Assembly (NCBI GenBank): GCA_024276695.1
Contig: JAJRWR010000014.1
Coordinates: forward strand, 1-64,000
Length of the DNA stretch: 64,000 bases
Source: an archaeon
GTDB taxonomy: Archaea > Thermoproteota > Nitrososphaeria > Nitrososphaerales > Nitrosopumilaceae
Direction: 5' to 3'
Both the position numbers and the translations under genes were made by a program. The notes beneath the pieces were generated by a model. The model had not been told where the DNA came from and did no database searches. It was given only the letters and a program-made list of their open reading frames with translations. Positions 34,517 to 43,592 of the stretch are shown here, piece by piece (position 1 is the stretch's first letter; the number at the start of each line of letters is the position of its first letter).

Positions 34517-35962
34517 ATGAAAAAGGAACTTGCCTTTGCATTAAACTATGCATTAAACAAAGGATTTCAGATTCATCCAGATGCTTTTAAAATTTTAGAA
34601 AACGTTGATGTAAAAAAATTGGAGAAGAGCATAAAAGAAATAGTTAGAGAAAAAACAAGACAAAAATTATTTCAGATTAACCAAGACGATTTGGAAACAT
34701 ATCTTGGAATTAAAGATGATTCATCATTAGAAAGTGAAATTAAGATATTATCAGATCCTACTAGTAAGATAACATCAGGAGAGGGAGTAAAGGGATACAA
34801 TGCTCTATTTTTAAGTCGCTTTAACAAGCTTAAACGAATTATCTCAGACAGGCCAGAGTCAAAAATGCTCAAATCTGCAGCATCCTTGAAAAATGCAAAA
34901 ATTGAAGATGATTTGTATGTGTGTGGATTAGTAACTATTAGAAATTCTGAGAGAAACATCACAAAAATAGTTCTGGAGGACCCGTCAGGCTCGTTTGAGG
35001 GCATTATTTTTGATGAGGAATTGCAAAAAACTGCAGGTAAATTATTGATTGATCAATTTATCATGGTAAGAATTGGTTCAGGTAAAAATTCAGGATATAT
35101 CATTAAGGATCTAATTTTGCCGGATATTCCTGAACAAGCAAAGAACAAGTCAGAGAGTGAGGTATATGCAGTATTTCTTTCTGACTTGCATATTGGAAGT
35201 AAATATTTCATGGAAGATGAATTTTCAGAATTTGTATCATGGATATCAAGTCCGGATCCAGTTGCAAGGAAAATTCGATTTGTCTTAATTGGTGGAGATG
35301 TGGTAGATGGGGTAGGGATATATCCAAATCAAAATAAAGAATTGGTTTGTCAGACGATTCAAGAGCAATTAAAAAAAGTAGAAGATTTGATTGACAAAAT
35401 TCCAAAAAATGTGAAGATTATCATAATGCCAGGAAACCATGATCCTGGAAGAAGAGCATTGCCACAGCCGGCTATACCAAAAAAATACAATTCTGGTTTG
35501 TGGGAAAGAGAAAATGTGTTTATGGTCGGCAATCCGGCTGTAGTCTCATTAAATGGGGTTATGGTTTCAATGTTTCATGGACAGAGTATAGATGATATTG
35601 TAAAGACCACACCAGGTCTAAGTTATGACAGACCTACTGATGTAATGAGGCATCTACTCAGGGCAAGACATCTCAGTCCAATTTATGGTAGCCAGACACC
35701 AATAGCACCTGAAATGGAGGATCTTTTGGTTATTCAGAACATTCCAGATATCTTTCATGTGGGACATGTACATAGAGCACAATTAGATATGTACAAGGGA
35801 GTTTTATTGGTAAATTCTGGCTCATGGCAGAAACAGACACCATTTCAGGCTAGTGTTGGAATGACCCCAAATCCTGGAATTGCTATTTTGGTAAATTTAA
35901 AAACTTTCCAAGTCTATCATCAAAATTATAGTTCTAATTTAGACAATGTCTTGCAAAGTTAG
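34517..35962 (+). CDS. polD1: DNA polymerase D small subunit (DP1)
   Basis: Archaeal replicative polymerase subunit with 3'-5' exonuclease of the Mre11-like phosphoesterase type. The 481-residue protein has an OB-fold region (about 130-200) and the metal-binding motifs DLHIGSKYF (about 221-229), GGDVVDG (about 256-262), MPGNHDPGR (about 301-309), FHGQS and GHVHRAQ. All catalytic His/Asp/Asn positions appear present. The end overlaps the convergent orc1/cdc6 by 24 nt; the large subunit is at 40.2 kb. Confidence 0.94.
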   Translation: MKKELAFALNYALNKGFQIHPDAFKILENVDVKKLEKSIKEIVREKTRQKLFQINQDDLETYLGIKDDSSLESEIKILSDPTSKITSGEGVKGYNALFLSRFNKLKRIISDRPESKMLKSAASLKNAKIEDDLYVCGLVTIRNSERNITKIVLEDPSGSFEGIIFDEELQKTAGKLLIDQFIMVRIGSGKNSGYIIKDLILPDIPEQAKNKSESEVYAVFLSDLHIGSKYFMEDEFSEFVSWISSPDPVARKIRFVLIGGDVVDGVGIYPNQNKELVCQTIQEQLKKVEDLIDKIPKNVKIIIMPGNHDPGRRALPQPAIPKKYNSGLWERENVFMVGNPAVVSLNGVMVSMFHGQSIDDIVKTTPGLSYDRPTDVMRHLLRARHLSPIYGSQTPIAPEMEDLLVIQNIPDIFHVGHVHRAQLDMYKGVLLVNSGSWQKQTPFQASVGMTPNPGIAILVNLKTFQVYHQNYSSNLDNVLQS

Positions 35963-37147
35963 ATCATCTTTGAATGTTTTTTTTATCATTTCAGATGATA
36001 TTGTGAGTTTGTATTTTTTTGTCCTTCCATGAATGCCTTGGTGGATTAGTCTTCCAGAAATAATTCCAGATAGTTCGATTTCGCTAAGCATTTGAGTGAT
36101 CCTTCTTTGTGTTAGCTCGTCTTTTCCTACTACCTTACAGAGATTTTTGTAGGAAGAATAAATCTCTCCAGTAGAAGAGCCATTTGCCTTCATTATTGCA
36201 ATAAGGACAAGTTTCTCATGAAGTGGAAATGATTTGAGTGATTTTTCTTCTTTATTTTCTTCCATTTTTTGGGAGGCCTCTCTGACATGCTCAATAGTGA
36301 CTGTGTCTGCTTGTTGTCGCTCAGCAAGTTCTCCTGCTACCCGAAGTAGATCGATTGCTCGACGAGCATCTCCATGTTCTCCTCCTGCAAGTGCGGCAAT
36401 GAGATTTAGGGCAGGTTCCTCTACTGAATCTTCAATGAATGATTCATTGATTCTTTCTTGAAGAATTTTTTTTATTTGTTCAACATTGTAATTTGTAAAT
36501 ACAACTTCTTCTTCTCCAAGACTACTAATTACTCTAGGATCAAGTCTTTCCTTAAATGTTAGATCATTTGAAATTCCCACCAAAGTTAGTGAACCTTGAG
36601 TTAGACGCTCATTTGCTCTGGTAAGTTGATAGAGAATATCCTTGCCTGTTTTTGCTATTAGTTGGGCTAGATAATCAATTTCATCAATTACAAAAATTGC
36701 GTTTAGTTTTCCCTCATCGATTTTGTTAAGTAATCTTTCAAAAACTACACTAATTGCCAACCCGTTTGAGGGTAAATCTTTTTCATTTAAGCCTAATTGC
36801 CTGCCTAGATTGACTAATAGTCCATATAATGTGGTTTGTTCTTTTGAGTTTGAATAAATTAATTTAATTGGGAAATTTGATTTTTTCACTCTTTCTTGAA
36901 TTTTAGAAATTACTTTTTTTACGACAAGTGTTTTTCCTGTTCCAGGTTTTCCATATACTAGGAGATTTGATGGTCTTGATTTTTTTAGAATTGGTAGTAA
37001 GGATTGAGTAACTTGTTCTTGTTCAGTTTTTCTATGTAAGATAATATCTGGCATGTATGTAAAATGAAGAATATCACGATTTTTTATTATTGACTTTCCA
37101 GATTCTGCTGCATTTAGTAAATCATCTATTGGATCAGACATACTCAC
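35939..37147 (-). CDS. cdc6: Origin-binding initiator Orc1/Cdc6
   Basis: AAA+ protein that binds origin recognition boxes and recruits MCM. The 402-residue protein has Walker A YGKPGTGKTLVVKK (about 62-75), Walker B FVIDEIDYLAQ (about 147), sensor 1 LVGISNDLTF, and a C-terminal winged helix (about 300-402) with SGRLIHQGIHGRTKKYKLT as the wing. It is transcribed away from the candidate origin directly upstream (37148-37631), the usual archaeal arrangement. Confidence 0.93.
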   Translation of the reverse strand: MSMSDPIDDLLNAAESGKSIIKNRDILHFTYMPDIILHRKTEQEQVTQSLLPILKKSRPSNLLVYGKPGTGKTLVVKKVISKIQERVKKSNFPIKLIYSNSKEQTTLYGLLVNLGRQLGLNEKDLPSNGLAISVVFERLLNKIDEGKLNAIFVIDEIDYLAQLIAKTGKDILYQLTRANERLTQGSLTLVGISNDLTFKERLDPRVISSLGEEEVVFTNYNVEQIKKILQERINESFIEDSVEEPALNLIAALAGGEHGDARRAIDLLRVAGELAERQQADTVTIEHVREASQKMEENKEEKSLKSFPLHEKLVLIAIMKANGSSTGEIYSSYKNLCKVVGKDELTQRRITQMLSEIELSGIISGRLIHQGIHGRTKKYKLTISSEMIKKTFKDDLTLQDIV

Positions 37148-37380
37148 ACACCTTTGTTTCCTTTCAACAATAACACAATTATATCTAAATTAAGAGAGTA
37201 TAGAATAGGATAGTAATAGTAGTTTAGTTTGTAATTAATTATTTTTAGTTAGTTTTAGATTTTCTATTAAAAAAATTAAAGAAAAAGATAGAGTGGAAAT
37301 ATTGGTGTGTGAGTTAGATTTTAAATTAAAAATAAATTAACATTTTTGTTAAAGTAATGTTAAGAAAAACCTCGAAAAGC

Positions 37381-37411
37381 CCATTTTAACCCCCTTATTT
37401 CCATTCCAGGC
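37381..37411 (-). repeat. Origin recognition box, copy 1
   Basis: First of two perfect 31-bp direct copies. Read on the minus strand, its centre (TGGAAATAAGGGGGT) matches the conserved GGAAA plus G-string layout of archaeal ORBs. Confidence 0.7.
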
Positions 37412-37441
37412 GTTAAGATGAATGTTAACATTGTGGATATT

Positions 37442-37472
37442 CCATTTTAACCCCCTTATTTCCATTCCAGGC
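37442..37472 (-). repeat. Origin recognition box, copy 2
   Basis: Second identical 31-bp copy, 61 bp from the first; same orientation. Confidence 0.7.
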
Positions 37473-37631
37473 ATGATAATTTCTTAATTTAAAAGGTTAA
37501 TTGAAGATTGACTGTTAATAACAAAAAACAAACTAGGCGTGGGTTAGGCAGTCAATGTTAACAAACCATTTAGTTAACAAACATTCGCGGATCATTTCAA
37601 CTGTTAACATTAGATCCGTTAGATCTCAAAG

Positions 37632-38018
37632 ATGACAAAAAAACGAATTAGAATAGATATGGAAGACTCTGATGGTGCTCATTATGACATCAAATTAGAG
37701 GGCAATGTAACCAGAGACAAAGTTCTCAAAATATTTGAAATGATGGATTTGATGAATATTGAAGAAGAACAAGAAGTCACAAACATGGATTCTGTTGGTT
37801 CTAAAATTTGGTATATTGTGGATAAATTCTTCCCAATGAGCAAATTTACCTCCACAAACATTCTTGAAAAATATGAGGACGAATATAATGAACCTGTTAA
37901 ACTTAGTATAATTTCCACATACCTATCAAGATTTTCCACAAAAGGTAGGGTAAACAGAACCAGAACAGGCCGAGAATGGACATATCAAACTATCAAAATA
38001 GCACAAAAACAACAATGA
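37632..38018 (+). CDS. Conserved protein next to the origin, winged-helix-like
   Basis: 128 residues: a charged N terminus (MTKKRIRIDMEDSDGAHYDIKLEG), an acidic linker and a C-terminal module (about 60-125) whose helix-helix-wing pattern (TNILEKYEDEYNEPVKLSIISTYLSRFSTKG then RTGREWTYQT) looks like a winged helix. The start is 11 bases after the last origin element, with no room for another gene, so its promoter must lie in the origin. A role in origin or replication control is suggested by position only. Confidence 0.7.
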   Translation: MTKKRIRIDMEDSDGAHYDIKLEGNVTRDKVLKIFEMMDLMNIEEEQEVTNMDSVGSKIWYIVDKFFPMSKFTSTNILEKYEDEYNEPVKLSIISTYLSRFSTKGRVNRTRTGREWTYQTIKIAQKQQ

Positions 38019-38291: not shown

Positions 38292-38897
38292 CTATTCTGT
38301 GATTGGATTAACTTTCACTTGTTCTACTTTTGCTATTCCTTTATCAGTAATTGAGTAAGTATATGGTTTTGATTCCGTATTTCTTTGAACATATCCATCC
38401 TCAAACATCTTTTTCATCAATCGTGAAGTATGTTCTCTACTTTTCTTTAATGTGATTTGTATGTCACGTGATGTCATAGCTTTGTTTGTGATTAGATGCA
38501 ACACATAATCAATAGGATTTGCAGGTGTAATATTTGGAATATTAGGCGTAGAAATCACATTTTCATGCATAACTTCTGGTTTACTAACCATCTCAATTGA
38601 TCTTTCTTGAACCTCATTCTTTACTAATTTTTCCAAAAACTGCCTCAATTCCAAATTAGGATCCTCTACTTTTTGTTCAACCCCTTGAATTTCTAAGGCA
38701 TCTAGGCGTATTTTCATGTCAATTAATTGTCTTTCATAATATTCTAATCGTTCAGCCCGTGTAGCATCAAAGACTTGGTTCTTAATTTTTACAAAAGGAC
38801 GTATTTTGAAGTAGCCATACAAACCTACTATTCCTATAATGAATGCTAAAATCACACCTAAAATCACTTCAGGTTCAGGAATTTCTATTAACATCAC
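38292..38897 (-). CDS. Membrane-anchored winged-helix protein
   Basis: 201 residues: one membrane helix (PEVILGVILAFIIGIVGLYGYF, about 9-30), a coiled-coil stretch (ERLEYYERQLIDMKIRLDALE), a polar linker, and a C-terminal MarR/ArsR-like winged helix (about 128-200: DYVLHLITNKAMTSRDIQI, SREHTSRLMKKMFEDGYVQ, KPYTYSITDKG). The DNA-binding part is tethered to the membrane with no external domain, unlike the protein at 12591. Target unknown. Confidence 0.7.
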   Translation of the reverse strand: MMLIEIPEPEVILGVILAFIIGIVGLYGYFKIRPFVKIKNQVFDATRAERLEYYERQLIDMKIRLDALEIQGVEQKVEDPNLELRQFLEKLVKNEVQERSIEMVSKPEVMHENVISTPNIPNITPANPIDYVLHLITNKAMTSRDIQITLKKSREHTSRLMKKMFEDGYVQRNTESKPYTYSITDKGIAKVEQVKVNPITE

Positions 38898-40214: not shown

Positions 40215-43200
40215 ATGTCTGAAAATGATGCAATTTCTCGAATTAGTGATATTGAAATGCCAGACTATTATCTTAATTATTATTCTAGTCTCTCAACTGA
40301 AACATATTCTATATTTGAACATGCAGCATCTGCCAAATCTAGTTTAGTCGATTCTTCAGGTATTATTGAGCCTAAAATCGCATTTGATTTGGCAGATAGA
40401 GTTGCGAAAATGCACGAGATTGACATTGCAGATCCATTAAGAGAAATTTTAAAAATTAATGGAAAAGAACTTTCTGCGCTTATTTTAGCAAAGGAGATTG
40501 CTTTAGGCAAATATTGTCTTCCAGATGCTACTTTAGAAGACAAACTTGATCTTGCAGTTCGTGTCGGTCTAGCTATAATTACAGAGGGGGTTACAATTGC
40601 TCCATTACAAGGAATTAGTGAGGTATTGATAAAGAAAAATAAAGATGGCACAGAATACCTATCTGTTTCAATTGCAGGACCAATGCGTTCAGCAGGAGGA
40701 ACAGAATCTGCAGTAACTCTGTTGATTGCAGACCATGTTAGAAAAATTGCAGGATTATCAAAATTCCAAGCTAACTCCTTTGATGATGAAACTGGTAGAT
40801 TTGTTGAAGAACTAAGAATCTATGAAAGAGAAGCCAGCAGCTTCCAGTTTCATATCTTAGATGAGGATATCGAACATGTCATTTCTAATCTTCCAGTAGA
40901 ATTAGCCGGCGTTGATACAGATCCTTATGAAGTGGTCAATCACAAATCAATGGCTCGAATCAAAACTGATCGAGTCAGAGGTGGAGCCTTACGTGTCTTA
41001 AATGATGGATTGATTGGAAGATCAAAGAAACTCCTCAAAAGAATTGAATTGTATAATCTAGATGGTTGGGAATGGCTAAATGATCTAAAAGGAGCTGTTC
41101 AAACTGGAGATAATCAAGAAGATACAGCTGCAAAAAGAATGCGTGAAGTAATTACAGGTAGATCAGTATTGTCTATGCCTAACAAATTAGGTGGATTCCG
41201 ATTGAGATATGGAAGAGCCTGCAATACAGGCTTTGCCGCCGTTGGAATTCATCCAATTATTGCTGAGATTCTTGACCATACAGTAGCTGTAGGAACTCAA
41301 ATCAAATGTGATATACCAGGAAAGGGTGCAACTGTGGCATTTGTTGATTCAATAGATACCCCAACAGTACGTCTCAATAACGGCAATGTTGTAAAAATCC
41401 GAGATGTAAAACATGGACTAGAAATTAAAAATGAAATAAAAAAAATTCTTCATTTAGGTGACATCTTAATTTCATTTGGAGATTTTCTTGAAAACAATAC
41501 CCAATTGGTACCTTCTGCTTATGTAGAAGAATTTTGGATAGAAGAACTAAAACAAAAAATTCAAAAATATGAGCCTGATAATCAATATCTAAATCAATTT
41601 TTGAATAAAACACCTACTATAGATGAAGCACTAAAAATTTCCCTAAATTTTGAGATTCCACTTCATCCACACTATTTGTATTTCTGGGATAAAATATCAT
41701 CTAAAGATCTTATCGAACTTTTAGAACCCAAAAAAGTCAACGAAACATCAATCGAATATCCAATCCAATTCAAACAAATTCTTGAAAACTTGGGAACCCC
41801 ACACAAAATTGAAAATGAAACAATTATCTTAAAAGGACCAGAGGCAAAAATCTTCTTTAATCTCTTGTTCAGGCAAAAACCCATAATCAGCGATCTATCA
41901 GTCCCAAAAATTTTAACAAAATCATCTGGAATCCAAATTAAAAATAAATTTTCAACAAGCATCGGAGTTAGAATAGGAAGACCTGAAAAAGCAGCTCCCA
42001 GACAAATGAAACCTCCGACACATGTATTATTTCCAATTAGTGACAAAGGCGGACCTACACGGGATCTTCTCAAAGCCTCTAAATCTGAGCATTTTTTTGC
42101 TAATATTTTTAATCGTCATTGTATACAATGCAATCAACCCTCCATAGGCATAAAATGTTCAATCTGTGGTACTAAGACATCAATTTCATACAGATGCTCT
42201 AGTTGTAGAGATACACTTGAGGAACCATTTTGTGAAAAATGTAAGCGTAAAGCACCGGCTCATTCACATCAAGCATTTCCACTTAAAACAAGATTGCTTT
42301 TAGCTCAAGAAAAAATGGGAATTCGTGCAAAAGAACCTTTCAAAGGAGTAAAAGAACTAATCAGTCAAGACAAAATTGCAGAACCATTTGAAAAAGGACT
42401 TGTGAGACAAAACTTTGGATTGACTACTTTCAAAGATGGAACAGTAAGATCCGATGCGACAAATTCTCCCTTAACACAATTCAAACCATCTTGGATTGGA
42501 ACATCTATTGAGAAACTAAAGGATCTTGGATATGTTCAAGACATTGACGGAAAACCTCTGGAATCTATAGATCAGACCATTGAACTTCGAATGCAGGACG
42601 TTATCATTCCTTATGAGAGTGGAAAATATCTAGTTTCTACATGCAAATACATTGATGTTCTTTTAGAGAAATTCTATGGAAAATCTTCATTTTATAATGT
42701 AAAGAATTTAGAGGAATTAATTGGACACTTGATTATTGGTTTAGCTCCTCACACATCAGTAGGAATAGTTGGAAGAATTATAGGATATACTGAAACCCAT
42801 GTTTGTTTTGGAACTCCAAATTGGCATTCTGCAAAAAGAAGAGATGCTGATGGAGATGCTGATTCTATAATGCTTTTAATGGACAGTCTACTAAATTTCT
42901 CAAAACAATACCTATCTGATGCAATAGGTGGTTTAATGGATGCACCATTACTTATTCAACCACATGTTTTACCACATGAATCTCAACCTCAAGCGCATAA
43001 TCTTGAAGTTACAAAAATACTTCCTTTGGAATTCTTTGAATCTACATTTGAACAAGTAAAAGCATCAGATGTATCCTCAGTTGAGATTATCAAATCACGT
43101 CTTGATACTAAGAGACAATTCTATGATTATCATTTTACACATACAACCTCATCTCTAACTACTTCAAAATCAAGAAGTGCATATTCCACGCTTGGTTCAA

Positions 43201-43592
43201 TGCTTGACAAATTTGATATGCAAGTACGAAATGCCGAACTAATCAATGCCGTAAACACTTCAGAAATTGTCTCAAATGTGATTTCAACACATCTCGTTCC
43301 CGACCTAATGGGAAATCTAAGGGCATATGCTAGACAGAGTTTTAGATGTACTGCATGTGGAAAATCATTTCGTAGAATGCCTCTTATCCAAACTTGTATT
43401 TGTGGGCATAAACTAATTGCCACAATTACAAGGGGTTCTGTAGAAAAATATCTGAAACTTGCAAAAAGATTGGTTGAAAAATATGATGTGGGTGATTATC
43501 AAAAAGGAAGAATTCTTGCTCTATCTGATGAAATTGAATTAGTATTTGGTAAGAGTAAGGGAGACCAATCTCTGCTTACAGATTATTCATAA
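40215..43592 (+). CDS. polD2: DNA polymerase D large subunit (DP2)
   Basis: Catalytic subunit of the archaeal replicative polymerase. 1125 residues with no intein visible. The double-psi barrel catalytic region near the C-terminal third has NWHSAKRRDADGDAD (the two catalytic aspartates) and LLNFSKQYLSDAIGGLMDAPLLI. Zinc modules are seen at CIQCNQPSIGIKCSICG (about 635) with the following CSSC and CEKC pairs, and at CTACGKSF...CICG near the end. The N terminus carries the GTESAVTLLIADHVR region. A Shine-Dalgarno-like AAGGACG precedes the ATG. Confidence 0.95.
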   Translation: MSENDAISRISDIEMPDYYLNYYSSLSTETYSIFEHAASAKSSLVDSSGIIEPKIAFDLADRVAKMHEIDIADPLREILKINGKELSALILAKEIALGKYCLPDATLEDKLDLAVRVGLAIITEGVTIAPLQGISEVLIKKNKDGTEYLSVSIAGPMRSAGGTESAVTLLIADHVRKIAGLSKFQANSFDDETGRFVEELRIYEREASSFQFHILDEDIEHVISNLPVELAGVDTDPYEVVNHKSMARIKTDRVRGGALRVLNDGLIGRSKKLLKRIELYNLDGWEWLNDLKGAVQTGDNQEDTAAKRMREVITGRSVLSMPNKLGGFRLRYGRACNTGFAAVGIHPIIAEILDHTVAVGTQIKCDIPGKGATVAFVDSIDTPTVRLNNGNVVKIRDVKHGLEIKNEIKKILHLGDILISFGDFLENNTQLVPSAYVEEFWIEELKQKIQKYEPDNQYLNQFLNKTPTIDEALKISLNFEIPLHPHYLYFWDKISSKDLIELLEPKKVNETSIEYPIQFKQILENLGTPHKIENETIILKGPEAKIFFNLLFRQKPIISDLSVPKILTKSSGIQIKNKFSTSIGVRIGRPEKAAPRQMKPPTHVLFPISDKGGPTRDLLKASKSEHFFANIFNRHCIQCNQPSIGIKCSICGTKTSISYRCSSCRDTLEEPFCEKCKRKAPAHSHQAFPLKTRLLLAQEKMGIRAKEPFKGVKELISQDKIAEPFEKGLVRQNFGLTTFKDGTVRSDATNSPLTQFKPSWIGTSIEKLKDLGYVQDIDGKPLESIDQTIELRMQDVIIPYESGKYLVSTCKYIDVLLEKFYGKSSFYNVKNLEELIGHLIIGLAPHTSVGIVGRIIGYTETHVCFGTPNWHSAKRRDADGDADSIMLLMDSLLNFSKQYLSDAIGGLMDAPLLIQPHVLPHESQPQAHNLEVTKILPLEFFESTFEQVKASDVSSVEIIKSRLDTKRQFYDYHFTHTTSSLTTSKSRSAYSTLGSMLDKFDMQVRNAELINAVNTSEIVSNVISTHLVPDLMGNLRAYARQSFRCTACGKSFRRMPLIQTCICGHKLIATITRGSVEKYLKLAKRLVEKYDVGDYQKGRILALSDEIELVFGKSKGDQSLLTDYS

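Follow-up and report, generated by a model that had tools for sequence, protein, structure and literature searches.

The subject of this analysis is a gap of ~480 bp (37148-37631) in a 64-kb stretch of DNA from a member of the Nitrosopumilaceae (contig JAJRWR010000014.1, positions 1 to 64,000; hereafter the window), which lies between the initiator gene orc1/cdc6 on the minus strand and a gene for a 128-residue winged-helix protein on the plus strand. Judged from its sequence, this gap is almost certainly the chromosomal replication origin (oriC) of a Nitrosopumilus and belongs to the Orc1/Cdc6 type. It holds four origin recognition boxes (ORBs), named L2, L1, R1 and R2 from left to right, two A/T-rich intervals and an array of GTTAAC palindromes (Table 1). 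The origin itself is a further example of an already known archaeal type; we did not find the variant formed by its ORB form, paired box types, palindrome array and linked gene described in the open-access literature, and the original mapping paper on N. maritimus may hold parts of it.

Four recognition boxes beside cdc6

A first-pass annotation, made from the letters of the window and their open reading frames, had reported two perfect 31-bp repeats in the gap, each with a minus-strand core of TGGAAA plus a G-string, and had taken them for ORBs of an Orc1/Cdc6-type origin. Both copies, R1 and R2, are indeed present with a start-to-start distance of 61 bp, both carry the core, and their uniqueness, conservation, matrix scores and the strand-asymmetry axes described below support the assignment; we conclude on sequence criteria that the two repeats are ORBs of such an origin. 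Recurrence of the repeats at many unrelated sites, which the annotation had named as an observation that would speak against an origin, was not seen: the 1.56-Mb genome contains no other match with up to 3 mismatches (reversed control, 0), and even for the looser core TGGAAANNNNGGGGT the whole genome has three matches, of which the gap holds two.

An alignment of the cdc6-upstream gap across relatives (73 sequences), a check that the annotation had proposed, revealed that the boxes are conserved. The tandem R pair is kept in nearly all relatives in the form CCTGGA[AG]TGGAAATAAAGGGGT, and the spacing between R1 and R2, in the 70 sequences with both boxes detected, is 61 bp in 29 and 62 bp in 41, with no other value. 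This is near six helical turns and would place both boxes on the same side of the helix. L1 and L2, which are inverted repeats of each other over 20 nt, are both nearly invariant in the same alignment. The annotation had noticed L1 as a degenerate plus-strand box; its sequence AGTGGAAATATTGG is found at 37292-37305, shifted rightwards by one base from the place given, but the box is far from degenerate, with a mean conservation of 1.78 of 2 bits in about 70 relatives. L2 had been overlooked, as had the status of GTTAAC as an origin-specific, class-wide element and the winged-helix gene bordering the gap.

When the window was scanned with a scoring matrix built from boxes in both near and deep relatives, the four gap boxes came out on top (35.8, 35.8, 16.2 and 15.7), followed at a distance by the next best position (6.6); in two congeners, one position among about 2 million reached at least 15.7. 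Several boxes with the TGGAAA plus G-string core are thus present and restricted to this locus.

Strand asymmetry supports a chromosomal origin

According to reviews, N. maritimus has one mapped origin (PMC4010727, PMC5333045), the single origin of strain SCM1 being attributed to Pelve et al. 2013 as cited in PMC4010727. Ori-Finder 2 likewise recovers one oriC for this species (PMC4164010), and its ORB repeats adjoin the cdc gene (PMC5797428). The skew check suggested in the first-pass annotation was run on two closed congeners, G059 and G073, using evenly spaced 10-kb samples (one per 25 or 42 kb) and a permutation test that treats the samples as exchangeable. In G059 the locus lies at 828 kb. 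The switch in gene direction is near 780 kb there, the best switch of AT and MK skew, after correction for gene direction, is at 805 kb, and GC and RY skew give an equivalent axis at about 810 kb; the observed skew differences were reached by 0 of 2000 permutations. G073, with the locus at 498 kb, has AT, RY and MK axes at 465-510 kb (p 0.02-0.03) and a gene-direction axis at 595 kb (p 0.046), whereas its GC skew gave no signal in the 10-kb samples, a result that counts against an origin there. Strand asymmetry near the locus is therefore clear in the first congener and weaker in the second.

The gap must also hold the promoters of cdc6 and of the winged-helix gene, and a passage in PMC9738581 describes Orc1/Cdc6 paralogs (Orc1-2) that can regulate transcription. 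The boxes and palindromes might thus be only the regulatory region of these two divergent genes, with replication starting elsewhere. We regard this as very improbable in view of the skew and gene-direction axes in both congeners, the single cdc6 (one copy across the 1.56-Mb draft of 41 contigs) together with the mapped single origin of N. maritimus, the absence of the boxes elsewhere in the genome, and a four-box layout that is fixed across the class.

Two box types that change in pairs

The four boxes are found in this layout throughout the Nitrososphaeria, including deep lineages, in which the tandem pair has the textbook ORB form CTCCAGTGGAAATAAAGGGGT, in agreement with the common ORB motif in DoriC (PMC4164010), and is spaced 59-62 bp apart in most. 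In the Nitrosopumilaceae both R boxes have changed TCCA to TGGA, giving TGGA[AG]TGGA, whereas the deep lineages keep TCCA; the canonical TCCA...TGGA dyad is thereby lost and was not found in the R boxes of this family. Because Orc1 binds an ORB as a monomer (PMC6742236), we do not take the dyad to be required. L1 and L2, for their part, both carry GGTGTGTG where the canonical ORB has GGGGT, and the 12 nt past their G-string have a G content of 0.32-0.35 versus 0.18 in the R boxes (30 gaps), the L boxes being G-richer in 25 of these 30 (Wilcoxon p 1e-5, kinship ignored). Since changes are shared between L1 and L2, and likewise between R1 and R2, we read each of these as a functional pair.

The candidate duplex unwinding element

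Weak A/T-rich duplex between boxes of opposite polarity is present in either of two intervals, L2-L1 and L1-R1. The first-pass annotation had placed the duplex unwinding element (DUE) in the latter and had described 37311-37375 as nearly pure A/T; this segment is in fact 81.5% A/T, with a window average of 67.6%, and the placement is probably wrong. The least stable part of the gap (about 37170-37290) lies across the plus-strand box from the segment chosen then, and the 120-bp stretch starting at 37170 ranks third among the weakest duplexes in the 64 kb. We compared the two intervals in all 27 gaps in which L2, L1 and R1 can be named, drawn from inside and outside the class and with kinship ignored: the A/T content of L2-L1 is the higher one in 24, and in 25 the weakest 40 bp of L2-L1 are the less stable, a measure that favours the longer interval, which the A/T measure does not. 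Box polarity points the same way. In G331, a distant member of the phylum without the winged-helix gene, boxes with outward-pointing G-strings flank an A/T-rich stretch that contains TATACAAAC, which matches the core of the crenarchaeal ucm sequence published as ATTATACAAAC (PMC12141716). By this polarity the unwinding element here would be L2-L1. We conclude that L2-L1 is probably the better candidate.

Several points weigh on the other side. Within the window itself the difference in A/T fraction is small (0.83 for L2-L1 vs 0.80 for L1-R1), the cdc6 promoter has to lie in L2-L1 as well and may account for part of the A/T excess there, and the polarity argument draws on one distant genome, G331, and gives a leaning, not proof. 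Melting and MCM loading may instead take place between L1 and R1, with the G-strings pointing inward, a possibility that we consider open to doubt. That interval is A/T-rich and varies in sequence, not in composition, its length of about 110 bp core to core is comparable to the 130-bp ORB3-DUE-ORB2 of Sulfolobus oriC1 (PMC12141716), and R1 is the strongest box by matrix. Against it stand the composition and stability of L2-L1 across the 27 gaps, the outward G-strings around the ucm-like stretch of G331, and the variant form of L1, which is shared with L2 and not with R1.

The ucm motif ATTATACAAAC has no pattern match in either interval of the window, and a ucm-like motif considered in its A/T block was dismissed as a loose resemblance. 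Inside L2-L1, an A/T-rich block (37188-37253) with a possible unwinding or promoter role is near-invariant, at a mean of 1.70 of 2 bits, in Nitrosopumilus and close relatives; it was not found in more distant members and was discarded as a class-wide element.

A GTTAAC palindrome array at the origin

Exact GTTAAC occurs four times in the gap, at 37424, 37557, 37573 and 37603. The first-pass annotation had counted four such sites on the far side of the repeats; the number holds, but the first site lies between the two repeats. Across 77 relatives the hexamer reaches a density of 8.7/kb in the gap compared to 0.07/kb elsewhere in the same loci, and among the 64 six-base palindromes it is the sole one to be strongly enriched in 34 gaps that represent about 20 families of the class (73 observed vs 6.6 expected; runner-up, 39 vs 25). 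Up to 161 bp of the gap in G067 consist of joined non-adjacent contig ends; its GTTAAC sites lie outside that part. Half-sites extend into the L1-R1 interval (TTAACA at 37337-37342, TGTTAA at 37347-37352 and TGTTAAGA at 37358-37365). GTTAAC is rare or absent in several deep families of the class and mildly enriched outside it (14 observed vs 4.0 expected). We found no link between GTTAAC and archaeal origins in the open-access literature.

The octamer TGTTAACA is present 36 times in the genome, 3 of them in the gap; its reversed control is present 73 times, which suggests possible avoidance of the octamer away from the origin. Another cluster of GTTAAC, in G059 (L177:6576-7205), proved to be a 24-bp coding tandem repeat within a long open frame and was set aside as coincidental, not an origin.

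A winged-helix gene linked to the origin

Profile searches placed the 128-residue protein in no named family above cut-off, with 17.5 bits against PF03965 (curated cut-off 22.6) and 17.4 bits against TIGR02698 (curated cut-off 121.95), while 10 of 15 members of its own family match PF03965 and 13 of 15 match TIGR02698 (E <=0.1; best about 1e-7). AlphaFold2 predicts a confident winged helix at residues 54-120, preceded by a beta-hairpin and a helix, and the fold matches of this model are generic winged helices, MecI and BlaI among them; a sequence search found no solved structure of the protein. Invariant residues of a divergent alignment are concentrated in the predicted recognition helix (STYLxR) and in the wing. 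No relatives of the protein were found on plasmids.

The gene is present in 256 of 300 genomes of the class and lies within 1.75 kb of cdc6 in 27 of the 28 distant members in which both can be placed (three on the same strand as cdc6, two across the record start), the exception being G067, with a distance of at least 2 kb across the record start. In the three same-strand cases (G012, G195 and G008) it is the winged-helix gene that has the ORBs upstream. Beyond the class, 30 genomes were tested: the gene adjoins cdc6 in 17 of them, and a strong ORB is located within about 1 kb upstream of it in 9 of the remaining 13, with cdc6 elsewhere, so that it is near cdc6 or ORBs in 26 of the 30. The gene thus stays with the origin more than with cdc6. 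No description of this gene was found in the open-access literature.

These observations suggest that the winged-helix protein may act at the origin and bind GTTAAC. The related MecI/BlaI/CopY winged helices bind short palindromes, the recognition helix of the 128-residue protein is invariant, and its gene lies at the edge of the array and keeps close to the origin. We put forward, tentatively, that this protein serves as an origin factor, so far unrecognised, in the Nitrososphaeria and in a group outside the class, and that here it would bind the TGTTAACA array and, with Orc1/Cdc6, shape, fire or silence the origin. The chances are about even that TGTTAACA is instead bound by another protein, for example a nucleoid protein like Sulfolobus UBP, or serves another purpose: the gene is more widespread than the palindrome, which speaks against a simple one-to-one link with GTTAAC, lineages that lack GTTAAC showed no other palindrome in its place, and UBP is a precedent for origin-binding nucleoid proteins (PMC12141716). 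A changed palindrome for the winged-helix protein in GTTAAC-poor lineages was sought and rejected, as the search gave essentially ORB dyads only.

Gene neighbourhood

Table 1. Features of the proposed origin and its bordering genes, by position in the window
Feature	Position	Strand	Remarks
orc1/cdc6	35939-37147	-	TIGR02928; conserved ATG at 37141-37143; single copy in genome
ORB L2	37142-37168 (about)	-	L1-type variant box (GGAAACAAAGGTGTGTGAGT); directly upstream of conserved cdc6 ATG; inverted repeat, alignment, matrix
L2-L1 interval, proposed unwinding element	37169-37287		A/T content about 82%; one of the weakest duplexes in the window; putative role
ORB L1	37290-37315	+	conserved variant box AGAGTGGAAATATTGGTGTGTGAGTT; alignment and matrix score
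L1-R1 interval, unwinding element of the first-pass annotation	37316-37380		A/T-rich; 37316-37335 variable in sequence
ORB R1	37381-37411	-	first perfect 31-bp copy; core TGGAAATAAGGGGGT at 37389-37403
Palindrome TGTTAACA	37423-37430		between R1 and R2
ORB R2	37442-37472	-	second perfect 31-bp copy; core TGGAAATAAGGGGGT at 37450-37464
Near-palindrome TGTTAATA	37513-37520		conserved
Palindrome TGTTAACA	37556-37563		alignment, genome count
Palindrome AGTTAACA	37572-37579		GTTAAC core; alignment
Palindrome TGTTAACA	37602-37609		alignment, genome count
128-residue winged-helix protein gene	37632-38018	+	linked to origin across the class and beyond

In a similarity search the Cdc6 protein was up to 96% identical to Nitrosopumilus proteins. 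The locus is flanked by the DNA polymerase D genes, that of the small subunit at 34517-35962 and that of the large subunit at 40215-43592, a replication-gene neighbourhood that speaks for an origin, and a predicted protein with a C-terminal winged helix (PF13463) is encoded at 38292-38897, a second possible DNA-binding protein close to the origin. Three GATC sites (37590, 37613 and 37622) lie within 40 bp of the start of the winged-helix gene; such a cluster is kept in the Nitrosopumilaceae (mean 3.0 per gap), not class-wide, and was rejected as a methylation or sequestration signal.

Discussion

We consider it highly probable that the gap is an origin with a division of labour among its boxes. 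Orc1/Cdc6 from the adjacent gene would bind the four ORBs, each with a fixed polarity. L2 and L1, the matched variant pair with G-strings pointing outward, would flank the weak duplex at 37169-37287, onto which MCM helicases would be loaded, and R1 and R2, the matched stronger pair predicted to lie on the same helix face, would gather or hold the initiator beside it. As L2 is located at the start of cdc6, Orc1/Cdc6 bound there may also turn down cdc6. A further protein, with the winged-helix protein as the first candidate, would bind the TGTTAACA palindromes.

Marine ammonia oxidisers are very abundant archaea whose origin make-up is hardly described in the open literature. The comparison yields a testable map: two box types that vary in pairs, a probable new melting site, the palindrome array, and a small DNA-binding protein with a gene that often remains next to the origin when cdc6 has moved away. 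Should the winged-helix protein indeed act at the origin, archaea would have a new kind of initiation or control factor.

Among the closest known systems, the origin of N. maritimus SCM1 is from the same genus and likewise lies beside cdc6 with ORB repeats (PMC5797428), but neither a box map nor palindromes nor a winged-helix gene is given for it in the reviews (PMC4010727, PMC4164010). The BlaI/MecI/CopY repressors resemble the 128-residue protein in their winged-helix domain, in the family profile matches and in the MecI/BlaI fold matches, whereas that protein falls below the curated cut-offs and has an N-terminal beta-hairpin and helix ahead of the winged helix. Haloarchaeal oriC1 (PMC4010727, PMC3528665) shares the inverted boxes near cdc6, but has other neighbour genes and a G-rich enhancer repeat in contrast to the GTTAAC array here. 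Aeropyrum pernix Ori1, with four ORBs and an A/T region between ORB2 and ORB3 (PMC8287685), is similar in having four boxes with an A/T-rich stretch between two of them, but here the proposed element separates a single box from the other three. Sulfolobus oriC1 (PMC12141716) also has an adjacent Orc1-type gene, ORBs of opposite polarity around an A/T-rich stretch and an extra motif beyond the ORBs; the Nitrosopumilus gap differs in carrying TGGA for TCCA in the R pair and GGTGTGTG for GGGGT in the L pair, in having GTTAAC and not ucm as the extra motif, and in its one cdc6 and apparently one origin.
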